DNA of 64,000 bases from Gottfriedia acidiceleris (GTDB lineage Bacteria > Bacillota > Bacilli > Bacillales > Bacillaceae_G). A program made the position numbers and the translations under genes. The number at the start of each line of letters is the position of its first letter. The stretch's first letter is position 1. The stretch is from assembly GCF_002128425.1 (NCBI RefSeq), contig NZ_NESS01000001.1, positions 62,001 to 126,000 of the forward strand, read 5' to 3'. Below the pieces are notes generated by a model. The model was given only the letters and a program-made list of their open reading frames with translations. It had not been told where the DNA came from and made no database searches. Below, one piece after another: positions 1,567 through 7,131 of the stretch.

Positions 1567-2148
1567 TCAATTTGTTTTCTTCTCTGAGAATTTATTTAAA
1601 TTTTTAAGCACTAAATCCATTACAATTTTGTATTCTTCGTCTTGGAAGATTGAATATAAAACAGCGTAATCATTATATATATCTAATAATCCATCAATAA
1701 TTTCTTGTTTTGTTGTTTTATTTCTGTTTTTATTAAAATCATTCATTGAGCGAAGTTTTTCTAAGTCTAATTTTGTAATGCCATTTTTATCATTTCTTAG
1801 TTTCTTTAAAATTGCATTTGCAGTTTGTGCTGATGCAATTAAGGTTAAATCTGTTTCATCGGCTTCTAACCATTCTCCATCAGTAATACGCGCTAATTCA
1901 TAGATTGTATCTTCCCACGCGTCATTTTTATATCGCCAAACTTCTGTACGATATCCAACAATTCGAAAGATTTCTTTTTCATATCCATTTACTTGAACGA
2001 GATCCCCAAAAGAAAATGAATAATTTACTTCTATCCATTCTTTCTCAAGTTTTTTCCCATCATATTCGTTGAGAAGCTGAAGAGTATTCTCAACATAAAG
2101 TCCGTCATGATTATTGACTTCATAAACAAAAACGCCATCCATCAGTTT
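1567..2148 (-). CDS. yodN: YodN, C-terminal part (gene interrupted by the serine recombinase element)
   Basis: Residues 30-222 of a protein whose first 29 residues are encoded at 6933-6847. The frame is open up to the junction (AAA CTG ATG GAT), with no ribosome site before the internal ATG at 2142. If the 4,698-bp element is removed, the N-terminal frame (ending ACA AAT ATT) runs straight into AAA CTG ATG with no shift. Position between yozD and yozE matches B. subtilis yodN, a gene of unknown function. The protein looks like a small KOW/SH3-like N-terminal domain (VDDIVVITLYGTVG) plus a helical acidic C-terminus. The yodN name rests on synteny and approximate length, not alignment. Confidence 0.75.
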   Translation of the reverse strand, partial: KLMDGVFVYEVNNHDGLYVENTLQLLNEYDGKKLEKEWIEVNYSFSFGDLVQVNGYEKEIFRIVGYRTEVWRYKNDAWEDTIYELARITDGEWLEADETDLTLIASAQTANAILKKLRNDKNGITKLDLEKLRSMNDFNKNRNKTTKQEIIDGLLDIYNDYAVLYSIFQDEEYKIVMDLVLKNLNKFSEKKTN

Positions 2149-2177
2149 AATATTTGTTAACTTTCTATTTTTATTGG
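2147..2177. repeat. Attachment-site junction at the yodN C-terminal side
   Basis: Contains the 13-bp core repeat (2147-2159), identical to 6845-6857, overlapping the 21-bp arm 2157-2177 (TTAACTTTCT...TATTGG). This arm is the exact reverse complement of 6828-6848. Sequence left of the core is host yodN; sequence right of it is element. Confidence 0.88.
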
Positions 2178-2206
2178 CTAACCAAACAAAGATACCACTT
2201 AAATTT

Positions 2207-2338
2207 TTAAGTGAGTGGCTTATTAGATGTATTTATTTTTATCTCTTCATTTTTTATTTTTATAGTTAATTTTAGTAATGCTTCAGCAGCAAGTTTTGCA
2301 TTAATCTTACCAATTTCTTCATATTTAAACTTATTCAT
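2207..2338 (-). CDS. 43-residue basic peptide beside the att site
   Basis: MNKFKYEEIGKINAKLAAEA begins a 43-residue lysine-rich, predominantly helical peptide. GAGGGGTG stands at a normal distance upstream of the ATG (2338-2336). It is the element gene nearest the C-terminal junction, only 30 bases from the attachment arm. Small basic proteins next to att sites in serine-recombinase elements are sometimes directionality factors; that role here is a guess from position and size only. Confidence 0.6.
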   Translation of the reverse strand: MNKFKYEEIGKINAKLAAEALLKLTIKIKNEEIKINTSNKPLT

Positions 2339-2424
2339 GAAGAAACACCCCTCTATAGACTATTCAGAGTTCTAGTCTATAGTTCATTGAAGCAGTTGGT
2401 AAAATATATGTGTAAAAGCATAAA

Positions 2425-2455
2425 AAACAACTCATCTGATTTATATGAGTTGTTT
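2425..2455 (-). terminator. Terminator after phaQ-phaP
   Basis: Stem AAACAACTCAT (2425-2435) pairs with ATGAGTTGTTT (2445-2455); on the minus strand it is followed by a run of T. It closes the phaQ-phaP unit just after the phaP stop codon. Confidence 0.85.
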
Positions 2456-2466
2456 AATAGTTAGTC

Positions 2467-3051
2467 TTATTTACTTTCAAATGTAAACATTTTAAAGCTA
2501 TCTTCAATACGATGGTTAAAGCTTGTATGAGCTGCCCTTAACTGTTCTAAGTAATGTTCATTTAATGATGACCAAACTCGATCTCTTTCCTTTAAACTCT
2601 CTATGTAGTATTCACCAGTTTGTTCACATTGCTCCTCCACTCTTTCAATTAACTCAACTGAGGCTTTGAAAGGAGTAGATAATAACTCACCAAATTTATT
2701 TACCGTTTCTTCAAATAGGTTTACACTTAATTGAACAGCTGAAGATTCATCTGAATTTGCGATTCTAATTTTAGATGTTCTTACTTTTAAATGATGATTA
2801 AAGTTCTTTACTTCCCCAAATAAACCATTTACTGCATTACGATATTCCTCATTAAATTTCCTTGTTTCTTTTAACACTTTCATAAACGAATTAAACCTTT
2901 GTTCTCTACTCGCTCTTAAGTGATTAAAACTATCTTCATATTGGTCCCAAAGTGTATTAAAAAAAGGATCCATAAAATAATTTTCTACTTTCTCAGCTTC
3001 AATTTTTGGAACAACTTCCGCTTTTTGTTTTGAAACTTTCTGAGTCGTCAA
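2467..3051 (-). CDS. phaP: PhaP-type phasin (polyhydroxyalkanoate granule protein)
   Basis: A 194-residue, highly helical, amphipathic protein without membrane spans or signal peptide. The DPFFNTLWDQYEDSF stretch and the LLSTPFKAS element followed by a long Gln/Glu-rich helix resemble Bacillus PhaP phasins, which coat polyhydroxybutyrate granules. It overlaps the phaQ stop by four bases (TTGA): the start is TTG at 3051 with AGGAGG 7 bases upstream, so the two genes are translationally coupled. Adjacent PhaQ supports the assignment. The synthase genes phaR-phaB-phaC are not in this window. It lies wholly within the element that splits yodN. Confidence 0.75.
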   Translation of the reverse strand: MTTQKVSKQKAEVVPKIEAEKVENYFMDPFFNTLWDQYEDSFNHLRASREQRFNSFMKVLKETRKFNEEYRNAVNGLFGEVKNFNHHLKVRTSKIRIANSDESSAVQLSVNLFEETVNKFGELLSTPFKASVELIERVEEQCEQTGEYYIESLKERDRVWSSLNEHYLEQLRAAHTSFNHRIEDSFKMFTFESK

Positions 3052-3470
3052 ATCTCTTCCTCCTCTTTTGATTTCGAATTTTTCTCTATTTTATCCTCTT
3101 TTTGTAATGGAGGAATGTAGAGCTCAAGAAAACTAGTGTACATTTTGAAAAATTGATCAAGCATTGATTGGTAAAGTTCGAGTTGTCTCGCGTTACCTCT
3201 TAAGTAAGCCTTCCCAGCTTCTGTAATTGAATAGCAGCGCTTAGCAGGTCCGCTTCCTTTTGTATCCCATTTTGATTGTACAAGGTTTTCTTTCTCTAGT
3301 TGTCTTAATAATCGATATAAATTTCCTTGGTCTAGTGTTTGAAACCCGAATGCGTGAAGCTTTTGAATTAATTCATATCCATGAAGTGTCATCCGACTAA
3401 GAAGTAGAAGAATAAAAGGCATAATAAAATTTTTTGAAGGAGCAATATTTTTATCTTTATCAATGTTCAT
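3048..3470 (-). CDS. phaQ: PhaQ-type PadR-family transcriptional repressor
   Basis: A 140-residue PadR-family winged-helix protein: FILLLLSRMTLHGYELIQKL and GNLYRLLRQLEKENLV form the helix-turn-helix and wing, SGPAKRCYSITEAGKAYL completes the domain, and a C-terminal amphipathic helix and charged tail follow. In B. megaterium PhaQ represses phaQP and is released by polyhydroxybutyrate; gene order here is the same. The start at 3470 (MNIDKDKN) follows GAGGTG; the track's upstream start lacks a site. A partial palindrome at 3493-3515 is a candidate operator. Ligand response is inferred from family only. Confidence 0.8.
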   Translation of the reverse strand: MNIDKDKNIAPSKNFIMPFILLLLSRMTLHGYELIQKLHAFGFQTLDQGNLYRLLRQLEKENLVQSKWDTKGSGPAKRCYSITEAGKAYLRGNARQLELYQSMLDQFFKMYTSFLELYIPPLQKEDKIEKNSKSKEEEEI

Positions 3471-3492
3471 TGGTAACACCTCTACATAAAAT

Positions 3493-3515
3493 CTATAGGT
3501 GTATTTTACACATAG
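3493..3515. promoter_or_regulatory. Candidate PhaQ operator
   Basis: An imperfect inverted repeat CTATAGGTGTA...TACACATAG lies 23 bases upstream of the phaQ start, in the divergent region between phaQ and the hydrolase gene. PadR proteins bind such sites near their own promoters. Assignment is by position and symmetry only. Confidence 0.4.
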
Positions 3516-3631
3516 ATGAATATACCGTCAATACACCAAATATAATTTATTATAAATTTTCTAAAAACTCCAAACATACCGTTTTTAACGTTAAATAATT
3601 TCGTAAAACCAATACCAAAGGAGTGATAAAA

Positions 3632-4414
3632 TTGTACGTTACTAAGACTGAAAAGATCAAACTGTATTACGACCGGTTAGGTACTGGAGAACCTCTCGTA
3701 TTAATTCATGGTCTTGGTGAAGTAAAAGAAAGTTGGATTAAACAATATGAGCTAGCAAATGAATTCGATTTAATTATTCCTGATTTGCGTGGCCATGGAG
3801 AAAATCATTTAACTGAAGGAATATCAATTAAGAATTTCGCAAAAGATGTCCTTGATTTAATGGATCAGTTAGAAATTGAAAGTGCACATATACTAGGCTT
3901 ATCTATGGGTGGGACTGTCGCACAAGAGATTTACCGTCAAGCACCTGCAAGATGTCGCTCTTTAATTCTAGTTAGTACATTTCATTTTGCTCCTAGATTA
4001 CTAGGTTTATGGTTTATTCATTATAAGGAGCTTCGATCAAAAATTTTTACACCACAACAAATAAGAGAGATGACAATAAGAGCGTGCCTATTTACATGGG
4101 AAGAAGAGTTATTACAACAATTTAAACAATATTATCGCCCAAATCCAGAAGGATATGACAAGTCAATGAGAGCCTGTTTTAACGTTGATAATAGAGAATT
4201 ATTACCAAATATAAAAGTACCAACGCTTATTATTGGTGGTGAGTATGATACCATTACTCCTGTATGGGTCCAATTAATAATGCATAAAAGTATTCCAAAT
4301 TCAAAATTAATTATTTTCAAAAATACTGGCCATGTAACCAAAATGGAAGCCGCAGAAAAATTTAATCAAACCATTCGCTCTTTTATAAATAAACAAGTAC
4401 ACGTAAAGAGTTAA
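3632..4414 (+). CDS. Alpha/beta hydrolase, possible PHB depolymerase or esterase
   Basis: A soluble alpha/beta-hydrolase fold protein of 260 residues. The nucleophile elbow GLSMGG, the oxyanion region LIHGLGEVKESW, a late acidic residue in GGEYDTITP and the histidine of NTGHVTKME give a complete Ser-Asp-His triad. The start is taken as TTG at 3632, with AAGGAG eight bases upstream; GTG at 3623 lies within that site. It is divergent from phaQ-phaP, so a role in polyhydroxybutyrate mobilisation is attractive, but the family is too broad for the sequence to decide; a general esterase or peroxidase-like hydrolase is equally possible. Confidence 0.8.
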   Translation: MYVTKTEKIKLYYDRLGTGEPLVLIHGLGEVKESWIKQYELANEFDLIIPDLRGHGENHLTEGISIKNFAKDVLDLMDQLEIESAHILGLSMGGTVAQEIYRQAPARCRSLILVSTFHFAPRLLGLWFIHYKELRSKIFTPQQIREMTIRACLFTWEEELLQQFKQYYRPNPEGYDKSMRACFNVDNRELLPNIKVPTLIIGGEYDTITPVWVQLIMHKSIPNSKLIIFKNTGHVTKMEAAEKFNQTIRSFINKQVHVKS

Positions 4415-4528
4415 TTTGTTAACTAGAAGACTTAGATCAACTTATTTCGCTATCTAATCGTATTACATCTAATTGTACTATTCTAAAAAAAGCCTCCATA
4501 TAGTTTACAAAAAAGGGAGGGGAGCAAT

Positions 4529-5152
4529 ATGTACGAAAATTGGCTCGATACATTATCTTCTAACGATTTATTTCTGACCATTCTATCAATATTAATTGGT
4601 GCGATAGGTGGCTATGCTAATATATTATTAGCAAATGAGGGCTATATTAGAAGTTATCGATTTAAAGATTCTGATGGTAGAGAACGATATTCATTAGGTT
4701 CTAAGAGAGAAATCATTCTTGGAGCTATGGCAGGTTGTGTATCATACCTTATTGCTGTTCTAACGACAACTGAACAAACTCCTGAATCCGTTATCATTTA
4801 TGCTTTTATTTGTGGAGTTAGCGGTGGTGCGTATTTAGAAAAATTAGTTGATAAAAACGTTAATGATAAAATAATTGATTTTAGTTCGACGCTTGAAGAA
4901 ATGGAGAAAGAGAAAAGTGAAAACAAAAAGACAAGTGCCCTCTCGATTCAGGAGGGAAATATGCATCAAACCGATACTGTTGTTGTCGATGAAATTGTCC
5001 AAAATAATGTTGATGACAGTACTAATGATGCGACCAATGAAGTAGTAGATTTTCATTACAATATTTTAAAGAAAAAATTAAAAAATGCAAGAAGCACTAA
5101 GGAAGCTGAAAAATACTTTAATGAATTAGTTAAATTGATCAATAACAGATAA
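4529..5152 (+). CDS. DUF4257-like membrane protein with charged C-terminal tail
   Basis: A 207-residue protein. Residues about 15-37, 64-84 and 90-108 are hydrophobic and glycine-rich (GAIGGYAN, LGAMAGCVSYL, ICGVSGGAYLEKLV), consistent with two or three membrane helices. The N-terminal half resembles DUF4257 proteins of Bacillus plasmids and islands; the rest is a hydrophilic, acidic then lysine-rich tail. A GGGAGGGG ribosome site precedes the ATG. It is the last plus-strand gene in the element and is followed by a strong terminator. Function unknown; the DUF call is from memory of the pattern. Confidence 0.55.
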   Translation: MYENWLDTLSSNDLFLTILSILIGAIGGYANILLANEGYIRSYRFKDSDGRERYSLGSKREIILGAMAGCVSYLIAVLTTTEQTPESVIIYAFICGVSGGAYLEKLVDKNVNDKIIDFSSTLEEMEKEKSENKKTSALSIQEGNMHQTDTVVVDEIVQNNVDDSTNDATNEVVDFHYNILKKKLKNARSTKEAEKYFNELVKLINNR

Positions 5153-5171
5153 ATTTTAATATTGCATGATA

Positions 5172-5217
5172 AAAAAGTTCAGTCCTATCTTTTCGGAGAT
5201 GGTTTGCTGAACTTTTT
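5172..5217 (+). terminator. Intrinsic terminator
   Basis: Stem AAAAAGTTCAG (5172-5182) with CTGAACTTTTT (5207-5217), loop containing a small inner hairpin, followed by T-rich sequence. Closes the plus-strand hydrolase/DUF4257 unit and may also stop minus-strand recombinase transcription from the other side. Confidence 0.8.
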
Positions 5218-5317
5218 ATTTTTTAAATTTAAGATTCTCAAAAAAAAATGACCTTACGTGGCTGTTTAATGGGAGATTTCTAGAGGGAATCGTTTAATAG
5301 AATGTTAGAATGTTGAA

Positions 5318-6787
5318 TTAGATCCATTCTATTTTAATAGTGGCAATTTCCTTACTTTGAGTAGTATCATGACTTGAATTCATATTACTACTAAACCATA
5401 TTTTATTAATAAATGTTTTTAAAAATTGGTTACATATTTCAGGATCTATTCGTTCTATATCGTCCAGAGTTTCAATTATCTTCTCTACTTTTTGATCATC
5501 ATCTTTTTTGTTTCTTAAATTCTCTATTTGAGTCTGATAGAGTACTAATTGCTCGTTCATTTGATTCATTTGAACGATTAGTTCATTTTTTAATTCTTCG
5601 TATTCATTTTTAGTAATTTCTCCATCCATCCTCATTTCTATAACGTTATTTTGACGTTTTTTAATTTTATCCTTTTGTTTTATTAATGAGTCGAGTTCAT
5701 TCATTAATCTCTGTTCTAGCTCAATTGTTTTTTGAGAATCTAGCATTTTTAGCGCGTTCTTTAGTTCTGATTTTTTTTCTTTAATGCTCTTTAAAACAAA
5801 CTCTTCAACTAATTCATATTTATAGCCTCGATCTTTACACTGATTGTTTGATATTTTATATGAACACGATTTAATAAAATCAATATTTGAACTATCTTTT
5901 TGAATATATCGCTTCCTCCCACAGCAATTACAGTATATTAAATTTTGTAACCTGCGAACTGTTTTTCGGTTTTGAAAATAAACATTTTTATTATTTTCTA
6001 ATATGTTTTGGACGGCAAAAAATTGCTCCTTTGTAATGATTGCCTCATGTGCATTTTCAATAAAAACTTCATCAATAATTTTATTATGAATACGTCTACT
6101 AGCTTGTATGACTCCATAATATACGGGATTTGTGCGTAATTGGCTAATATGTGATGTTGTAAGGATTTTACCTTGTCGACTCCTCCAATTTAATCTATTT
6201 AAATGCCTTGCTATTTCATTGACGGAAACTCGTTCTAACGTTTTATCGAATATTAGTCGAATGATCTTTGCTTCGTCTTCATTTATTTCTAATTTTTTTT
6301 CTGAATTTTTACGATATCCAAGTGGAGTCTTATTGCTCATTACCCATTTTCCTTGCTCCGCTGCCGCTAATCTACCTCTCGATAACCGCTTCTTTATTTG
6401 TTTATATTCAAAATTAGCCAATACTGCCTGAAATGAAAATAACATTTCATTCGTTTCCTGCGATAGATCTATTTTACCTTGTGGCGTTAATATTTTAATA
6501 TCATTTAATAGTAATACTTGCTTGATTTGTTCGGCATGTGCATTATCACGTGAAAGACGATCTATATCCATAATAATTAAATAATCAAATTCATGAATTT
6601 TCTTTAGTAATATATTTAATTGTTCACGCTCTGTATTTACACCACTCGAAATTTCCTGATAAATGATATATTTTAAATTATGTTGGTTTGCAAGCTTAAT
6701 CAAAGCATTTTTATGATTAAGTAACACTTCATCTACATCTTTTTGTTCTTCATTTCTTGAGAGTCTAAGATAAATAGCTGCTAACAT
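5318..6787 (-). CDS. Large serine recombinase (SpoIVCA-type site-specific recombinase)
   Basis: 489 residues with the full large-serine-recombinase architecture. The N-terminal resolvase domain spans about 1-145, with catalytic Ser10 in AIYLRLSRNE and conserved arginines in DIDRLSRDNAHA. A recombinase domain spans about 155-265 (PLGYRK..., NPVYYGVI). A zinc ribbon has Cys286/289 (CNCCG) and Cys308/317. A long coiled coil (about 330-440) and a C-terminal strand complete it. It sits at the very end of the element and its ATG overlaps the stop of the truncated yodN frame, with AAGGTGAT as ribosome site. It should catalyse excision and integration at the 13-bp core; this is family knowledge plus context. 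Confidence 0.93.
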   Translation of the reverse strand: MLAAIYLRLSRNEEQKDVDEVLLNHKNALIKLANQHNLKYIIYQEISSGVNTEREQLNILLKKIHEFDYLIIMDIDRLSRDNAHAEQIKQVLLLNDIKILTPQGKIDLSQETNEMLFSFQAVLANFEYKQIKKRLSRGRLAAAEQGKWVMSNKTPLGYRKNSEKKLEINEDEAKIIRLIFDKTLERVSVNEIARHLNRLNWRSRQGKILTTSHISQLRTNPVYYGVIQASRRIHNKIIDEVFIENAHEAIITKEQFFAVQNILENNKNVYFQNRKTVRRLQNLIYCNCCGRKRYIQKDSSNIDFIKSCSYKISNNQCKDRGYKYELVEEFVLKSIKEKKSELKNALKMLDSQKTIELEQRLMNELDSLIKQKDKIKKRQNNVIEMRMDGEITKNEYEELKNELIVQMNQMNEQLVLYQTQIENLRNKKDDDQKVEKIIETLDDIERIDPEICNQFLKTFINKIWFSSNMNSSHDTTQSKEIATIKIEWI

Positions 6788-6933
6788 AAAATCACCTTAT
6801 TATGCATTTTGGTAAAGTGTTGAATTCCCAATAAAAATAGAAAGTTAATATTTGTTATCTTTCCGACAGTACCATATAACGTTATCACGACAATATCATC
6901 CACGTTATATTTGGGTTGTTTTTTCTTCGTCAT
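6781..6933 (-). CDS. yodN: YodN, N-terminal part running into the element
   Basis: ATG at 6933 with AAGGAGG eight bases upstream starts MTKKKQPKYNVDDIVVITL. Residues 1-29 are host yodN; after codon 29 the frame enters the element and ends after residue 50 at TAG 6783-6781. That stop overlaps the recombinase start (ATGTTAG), so ribosomes finishing this fragment could reinitiate on the recombinase. On excision the codons ACA AAT ATT at 6855-6847 continue with AAA CTG ATG at 2148-2140 to give a 222-residue protein. The KYNVDDIVVITLYGTVG segment resembles a KOW/SH3-like strand pair. Confidence 0.8.
   Translation of the reverse strand: MTKKKQPKYNVDDIVVITLYGTVGKITNINFLFLLGIQHFTKMHNKVILC
6828..6857. 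repeat. Attachment-site junction at the yodN N-terminal side
   Basis: The 21-bp arm 6828-6848 (CCAATAAAAA...GTTAA) overlaps the 13-bp core 6845-6857. The arm is the exact reverse complement of 2157-2177. To the right of the core is host yodN; to the left is the element. Confidence 0.88.
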
Positions 6934-7131
6934 ACTTCTTACCTCCTTCTCCATTCGTCGTGACTAATTCGTTTTTACTGTATACTATGCAACCAATAGA
7001 TAATTGTCTGTCATTTTCATCGTAAATAAAAAAAGGGATTAGCCTATTTTGTAGGTAAGAAATAAAAACGGGTAATAAGAGAACTAATTGAAAAGAAAAG
7101 ACGTTTGAATTTTCTTGTTTATATAAAAAAA

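Follow-up and report, generated by a model that had tools for sequence, protein, structure and literature searches.

The stretch of Gottfriedia DNA analysed here (64,000 nucleotides, below called the window) carries a yodN gene interrupted at codon 28 by an element of 4,698 bp that is flanked by serine-recombinase attachment (att) sites. We consider it quite likely that this is a sporulation gene-intervening element in yodN, like skin, SPbeta in spsM and gin, in which both the target gene and the pair of recombinase and partner are new. The element sits at one exact codon, with both halves of the gene in working order and with clean attL and attR sites, and its precise excision would probably rebuild yodN during spore formation. 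The open-access literature searched, judged by titles and with subscription papers outside this scope, yielded no description of a rearranged yodN. The window belongs to a 4.77-Mb assembly of 45 contigs (G000), and other genomes are referred to by numbers of the same kind where they have to be told apart.

The element splits yodN at codon 28 and carries a serine recombinase

Both pieces of yodN lie on the minus strand, as the original prediction had described. The 5' piece (head) has 29 codons (6847..6933) and matches positions 1-28 of the NCBIfam model NF058646, which carries the name 'germination protein YodN', and the 3' piece (tail) has 193 codons plus stop (1567..2148) and matches positions 28-217 of the same model (E 2.5e-72). 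The 13-bp repeat TTAATATTTGTTA that had been noticed at both junctions is real (2147-2159 and 6845-6857), and turned out to be part of a larger att structure not named at that time. It is embedded in a 19-bp direct repeat with one mismatch, and the ends of the element form a 30-nt inverted repeat (2148-2177 and 6828-6857, 87% complementary), which we identify as both arms of a predicted serine-recombinase attP site. On this basis, attL (6828..6870) is composed of the B half of yodN, the core AACAAATATT (6856-6847) and the P' arm (6846-6828), and attR (2135..2177) of the P arm (2177-2159), the core (2158-2149) and the B' half of yodN. The two core copies are 4,698 bp apart, and joining the element ends gives an attP with 19-bp arms.

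The att sites were compared in seven split Gottfriedia genomes; an eighth, G008, is spread over contigs. The head-side site reads ATAACAAATATWAACTTTCTATTTTTATTGG, with one base different in G010, and the tail-side site reads CCAATAAAAATAGAAAGTTAAYAAATATTAAACTG. In four of the seven, the head side and the tail side are mismatched to the left and to the right of AAATAT, so that the crossover lies inside those 6 bp, within codons 27-29. Judged by sequence, precise removal restores the reading frame, both at the junctions of two intact relatives (G006 and G012) and at a circle junction in the isolate AFS001701 described below. The intact YodN of these relatives shows no difference from either piece (29/29 and 194/194 positions, stop counted), and their genes are scarless. 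Both comparisons proposed with the original prediction therefore speak for it, as the junction predicted is the one seen in uninterrupted yodN of close relatives, and the alignment of both pieces to YodN is exact. One of its arguments, the divisibility of 4,698 by three, had to be dropped: in the seven split genomes, head and tail are separated by distances of 0, 1, 2, 0, 1, 0 and 2 modulo 3, so that this property carries no meaning, and the reading frame after excision is set only by the crossover at the core.

Together with the att sites at the gene junctions, the element encodes a large serine recombinase of 489 aa (5318..6787, minus strand). The protein has the Resolvase N domain (PF00239) and the Recombinase domain (PF07508) above their cut-offs and a zinc ribbon (PF13408) matched below its cut-off, and it matches the PHROG 95 integrase at 5e-90. 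Its nearest solved chains in the PDB are those of YokA of SPbeta, which we take to be SprA, alone or fused to YotN. The gene starts about 60 bp past the core. The stop of the continued yodN head frame (6781-6783) overlaps with the start of the recombinase gene, by 7 bases in all seven Gottfriedia elements examined. The head frame ends elsewhere in hosts outside Gottfriedia, so that what the elements have in common is joint transcription rather than translational coupling. The yodN strand showed no promoter-like site from the core to the recombinase, and a sigma-70-type scan of 6700-7110 gave one site, on the opposite strand, with 2.0 expected by chance.

Both halves of yodN are conserved in split genomes

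Among the seven split Gottfriedia copies, the tail (193 codons) differs by 7-43 silent and 0-2 replacement codons. By the NG86 method, the nonsynonymous rate (dN) over the 21 pairs of split genomes was 0-0.0043 and the synonymous rate (dS) 0.064-0.514. The head showed no replacement in any of the 21 pairs, and its silent sites vary. Both halves are thus under very strong purifying selection in the split genomes. The mean dN/dS was 0.105 for the recombinase, 0.128, 0.156 and 0.158 for the hydrolase, PhaQ and membrane-like cargo genes, 0.383 for the PhaP-like gene (six of the seven genomes; in G009 no such ORF is listed and the frame has an internal stop) and 0.427 for a 43-aa ORF. Therefore, the split yodN is more strongly conserved than any gene carried by the element.

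All 13 genomes of the genus Gottfriedia have yodN, which is split in eight and intact in five. The seven split genomes besides that of the window have a recombinase 86-95% identical to the one described here (on two overlapping contigs in G008), and the five intact genomes have only relatives of it at about 33% identity or less; G006 and G012 have no close recombinase. Among named records, the recombinase matched those of G. acidiceleris, G. luciferensis and several AFS isolates. The rpoB tree joins the eight split genomes with the intact G006 and G012 in one clade (support 100/99), within which G006 groups with G004, G008 and G009 (98/98) and G012 pairs with G011 (100/100). The recombinase tree has seven Gottfriedia rows, leaving out G008 (split over contigs), G015, and G024 and G025 (frameshifts), and it places G011 first and then the window genome, as in the rpoB tree. 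This pattern fits one gain in the ancestor of the 10-genome clade, followed by two precise losses. As a separate observation, all 13 genomes also have a relative of the C-terminal region of YodN (about 150 aa, about 30% identity) that might take over some of the function of YodN in Gottfriedia.

The same codon is used in other genera

Outside the genus, seven genomes have recombinase orthologues (58-70% identity) that adjoin a yodN head. They are G015, which is of the same family, Robertmurraya yapensis (G019), Bacillus sp. CECT 9360 (G020), Peribacillus asahii (G021), Neobacillus vireti (G022), Neobacillus sp. SuZ13 (G023) and N. pocheonensis (G024). The insertion codon is identical in all of them and in Gottfriedia, and the central two att bases vary with the host codon: AA with AAT (Gottfriedia and G015), GA with GAT. 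The elements can be much larger here, with head and tail about 26, 28, 30 and 37 kb apart in G022, G023, G019 and G024, respectively. An intact tail frame was found in 13 of the 15 split genomes; both the tail and the recombinase are frameshifted in G024, and the tail is missing in G021, where the contig stops just past the core. The recombinases of G019 and G020 are almost identical and their rpoB genes are far apart, and the two elements have the same ends next to yodN bases that differ, which indicates recent transfer outside Gottfriedia.

Among 397 sampled genomes of the order, 183 had a YodN match and nine, seven of them Gottfriedia, had the recombinase at E 1e-100, and hence the element is uncommon. 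A further genome from another genus, G237, is a probable carrier: its yodN tail is ended by the contig end exactly at the core, and another contig has, 107 bases from its end, a match to the small-protein profile discussed below (E 2e-20), from which the sequence continues through the P arm to the core. Neither the family matches nor the P. asahii head pattern (a weak test) revealed a yodN head there, and the recombinase matches of this genome reached no more than 25-29% identity. Cytobacillus depressus (G025), which was not counted as split, has an intact yodN and, at another chromosomal site (L074:9900-11285), a frameshifted recombinase relative with a P' arm, apparently a decayed copy at a secondary site.

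A small partner protein and promoter-like motifs

Two genes recur in every element examined, namely the recombinase gene and a gene for a protein of 39-46 residues, and the cargo differs. In the window, the latter is the 43-aa ORF (2207..2338, minus strand), a candidate recombination directionality factor. Homologues are found in the seven Gottfriedia elements and in G008, G015, G019-G024 and G237, with nine invariant columns in an eight-row alignment. The gene lies directly downstream of the recombinase in G015 and near a contig end in G021, and starts about 230-250 bp before the tail in G019, G020, G022, G023 and G024. Searches of eight members gave no convincing family in PHROGs (one matched one PHROG, at 0.014) or Pfam (two matched a model, best 0.02), and no convincing structure in the PDB, where a match at 5e-06 was a repeat protein over 13 residues. 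The protein is close in size to GirX of gin (42 aa), which was shown to be a directionality factor (PMC5595907), and to SprB of SPbeta (58 aa), which was proposed to be one (PMC4191935). It is likely that this protein acts as the directionality factor of the recombinase.

By comparison with the sigma-K and sigma-E consensus, we recognized two promoter-like motifs of the mother-cell type in the window. One, AC-N16-CATAGTATA (6981..7007, minus strand), stands before yodN and hence before the recombinase, and the other, AC-N17-AATAGTCTA (2356..2383, minus strand), stands before the 43-aa ORF, its box starting with A, unlike the C of the sigma-K consensus. The first was followed in 65 yodN upstream regions (12 from Gottfriedia, 8 from other split hosts or a relative, 30 from order-wide loci, and 15 of 20 extra stretches, in which the start was placed), near-duplicates included. 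CATANNNTA occurred within 150 bp upstream of yodN in 47 of them, compared with 4.2 expected from block shuffles, and AC-N15..17-CATANNNTA in 26, compared with 0.68 expected. In 34 non-redundant rows preselected for the box, the preceding base was always G, and C at -18 (71%) was the strongest -35 signal. The best sigma-A fit in the 12 Gottfriedia rows had 4 mismatches. Upstream of the small gene, AC-N17-CATANNNT[AG] was present in all five non-Gottfriedia regions tested, beginning 43-47 bases upstream of the start codon (p 0.004-0.017 each by shuffling; three related Neobacillus are among them). This predicted layout resembles that of SprB, for which PMC4191935 describes a perfect -10, an imperfect -35 and mother-cell expression.

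A circle junction in one assembly

In the assembly of AFS001701, the contig NZ_NTZO01000628.1 ends with ...CCAATAAAAATAGAAAGTTAATAAATAT-AAACTTTCTATTTT, where the right end of the element is joined to its left end at the core, and contig C540 of G008 reads the same end. The AFS001701 assembly also holds attL and attR, on other contigs. The base after the core in the circle junction is A, as in attL of this isolate, and attR has T. An assembler chimera was considered and rejected, because attL and attR have only 6 bp in common at the core, which is too short for an assembler jump. Either a circle or a tandem copy was thus present in the sequenced AFS001701 DNA. Contigs also end at or beside the core in G008, G237 and G021, which is suggestive of a mixture of forms.

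Cargo and neighbouring genes

Between the two recombination genes, the window's element carries genes for a PhaP-like protein (2467..3051, minus strand; PF09602, 1.1e-18), a PhaQ-type PadR repressor (3048..3479, minus strand; TIGR02719 above cut-off), an alpha/beta hydrolase (3623..4414, plus strand; PF00561) and a membrane-protein-like product (4529..5152, plus strand; no family above cut-off). PhaQ is found outside the element in each of the 13 genomes, with a second, element-borne copy in the eight split ones. The two repressor genes of the window genome are at 3048-3479 in the window and at C45:82571-82963, and polyhydroxyalkanoate metabolism is possibly linked to sporulation.

Apart from the integrase, no transfer, phage structural or replication gene was seen among the six scanned Gottfriedia element proteins. 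Ten proteins were scanned for the Robertmurraya element, which has a DnaB-like helicase and a terminase small-subunit-like gene. Its cargo comprises SpoVAC, SpoVAD, DUF1657, two YetF-type proteins, a phospholipase-D-type protein, a coat-F protein and a cell-wall hydrolase. This spore-gene cluster in the yodN element of Robertmurraya yapensis is reminiscent of mobile spoVA operons, which have a link to the heat resistance of spores. In the available parts of the large elements, none of the four cargo proteins of Gottfriedia had a convincing match. The recombinase was not found in plasmid records at E 1e-60. Phage records contained no close relative (523 matched, all below 60% identity, the best rows at about 30%), nor did viral contigs (six relatives, 25-33% identity), where the attP pattern had 0 matches.

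The flanks read PAP2 gene, small ORF (1068-1253), yodN, YozE, YokU and KamA. The gene order that had been proposed stands for the PAP2 gene, YozE, YokU and KamA, for which family matches were found; the small ORF had no NCBIfam match, and can be called yozD by position only. As to the proposed mother-cell expression of kamA in B. subtilis, the main text of the one paper searched for it makes no mention of the gene.

Comparison with known systems

The skin element is precisely excised from the split sporulation gene sigK. The yodN element, which splits a probable sporulation gene and is predicted to be excised with like precision, differs from it in gene, recombinase and size. In anatomy, the yodN element resembles gin and SPbeta in spsM. 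As described in PMC5595907, gin lies in gerE of Bacillus cereus ATCC10987, measures 28.6 kb and has three recombinases, with GirC and GirX acting on it. Like the yodN element, it is a non-phage element in a small sporulation gene (a probable one in the case of yodN), with a serine recombinase, a small factor (a candidate in our case) and a short common core within an imperfect inverted repeat. Unlike gin, the yodN element is only 4.7 kb long, has one recombinase whose start overlaps the host head ORF, and uses another target gene.

SPbeta in spsM is an active prophage that uses SprA and SprB (the latter being YotN), and according to PMC4191935, sprA has a predicted sigma-A promoter and sprB its own mother-cell promoter. 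The yodN element likewise has a small partner gene, preceded by a promoter-like motif, but for its recombinase no promoter-like site was found on the yodN strand between the core and the gene start. SPbeta-type records are about 30% identical to its recombinase and belong to the same superfamily, and YokA is nearest in the PDB.

A second large serine recombinase was observed in the window genome, 32 bp from a truncated dpaB/spoVFB piece and next to dpaA (L002:1492-4348; contig C41 near 197 kb). The target gene of the vfbin element is spoVFB. The truncated piece has 142 codons (model positions 1-137 of 187), and a copy of it (98-100% identical) accompanies the recombinase at 11 of the 17 loci checked. 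This recombinase is separate from that of the yodN element (about 30% identical), and a vfbin-like element, named after the one mentioned in PMC5595907, is very likely also present in Gottfriedia.

Discussion

The idea of a skin-like element able to rebuild yodN is supported by selection on both halves, the nested intact genomes, the use of the same codon in other genera, the small partner gene, the promoter motifs and the circle junction. We infer the timing of excision, in sporulation, from the promoter-like motifs. In growing cells, the split yodN would be off. A promoter of the sigma-K/E type would transcribe the yodN head in the mother cell, and in Gottfriedia, ribosomes finishing the head ORF could begin again at the recombinase ORF that overlaps it. 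The 43-aa protein, made from its own mother-cell-type promoter, would switch the recombinase to excision, attL and attR would recombine, and the element would leave as a circle. After that, the yodN promoter would read intact yodN, and the recombinase no longer. The germ line would keep the element because the mother cell dies, and rare excision outside the mother cell would give rise to the scarless intact relatives.

We also propose, tentatively and with more doubt than confidence, a self-triggering repair switch in which the host mother-cell promoter and the first 29 codons drive the recombinase that rebuilds yodN, and the recombinase is then cut off from the promoter. Such a switch would have spread horizontally to at least five genera. 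Its minimal version, 4.7 kb long and inherited vertically, would be that of Gottfriedia, where the same step would also take the polyhydroxyalkanoate-related cargo out of the mother-cell chromosome.

Several observations weigh against excision timed to sporulation or against parts of the evidence for it. CATANNNTA is absent from 18 of the 65 yodN regions, the full motif is in only 26, and the G015 region has neither. A sigma-A TTGACA/TATAAT match occurs in 10 of the 65 with up to two mismatches (3.2 expected) and in 36 with up to three (23 expected), many yodN boxes include TATACT or TATAAT, and a sigma-A promoter for yodN is possible. The small-gene box ends in TG, not TA, in the three Neobacillus and is AATAGTCTA in Gottfriedia (AC-N17-AATAGTCTA in both regions tested), and the dN/dS of the 43-aa ORF is moderate (0.43). 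With respect to the circle junction, a tandem copy would yield an identical one, the source is one draft assembly of many contigs, and the contig stops 14 bases further on and has, just before the P arm, a partial extra arm copy that is absent from other elements. The recombinase tree pairs G002 with G009 (96/95) and the rpoB tree pairs G002 with G001 (92/80), and by this conflict some exchange or independent gains are possible. Finally, the spore role of YodN is probable on the basis of its NCBIfam name, and excision in sporulating cells is proposed from DNA sequence.

Some of these points would also suit a mobile element that uses yodN as attB by chance and is excised at a low constant rate or for transfer, leaving enough cells with intact yodN for selection to act. 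The circle junction comes from a genome assembly, the near-identical recombinases and ends in Robertmurraya yapensis and Bacillus sp. CECT 9360, unlike the host yodN bases, point to recent transfer, and sigma-A could serve the yodN promoter. However, the Gottfriedia pattern fits a single gain in the ancestor of the 10-genome clade, the six scanned element proteins include no transfer-like or phage structural-like one, mother-cell-type motifs precede both yodN and the small gene, and a dN near zero over the split gene would be hard to keep if YodN were made in rare cells only. We therefore regard this explanation as unlikely.

An ordinary insertion, which would have left yodN dead with halves that have yet to decay, is very improbable. 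The frameshifted tail and recombinase of G024 do look like decay (sequencing errors are possible), but the tail frame is intact in 13 of the 15 split genomes, and up to 43 silent codons stand against 0-2 replacement codons between split copies. We find it hardly credible that the pieces are two separate proteins, the head being a leader peptide for the recombinase and the tail a shortened YodN. This would account for the overlap of the head ORF with the recombinase start, and the tail frame of G001, G002 and G010 does open at a start codon within the element; such upstream starts are, however, not common to all seven genomes, no ribosome-binding-like sequence precedes the first ATG of the tail in any of the seven, and the head has no amino-acid change among them although its silent sites vary.

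In conclusion, only a few gene rearrangements in sporulation are known, and the yodN element, on the explanation of a sporulation gene-intervening element, would extend their number by one, with a target gene and a recombinase-partner pair that are both new. The element is small (4.7 kb, with two recombination genes) and easy to take apart, and yodN, a poorly studied gene, gains a hint of a mother-cell role. We believe that the Gottfriedia clade, in which split, intact and circle forms of one locus occur, can make the persistence of such elements testable.

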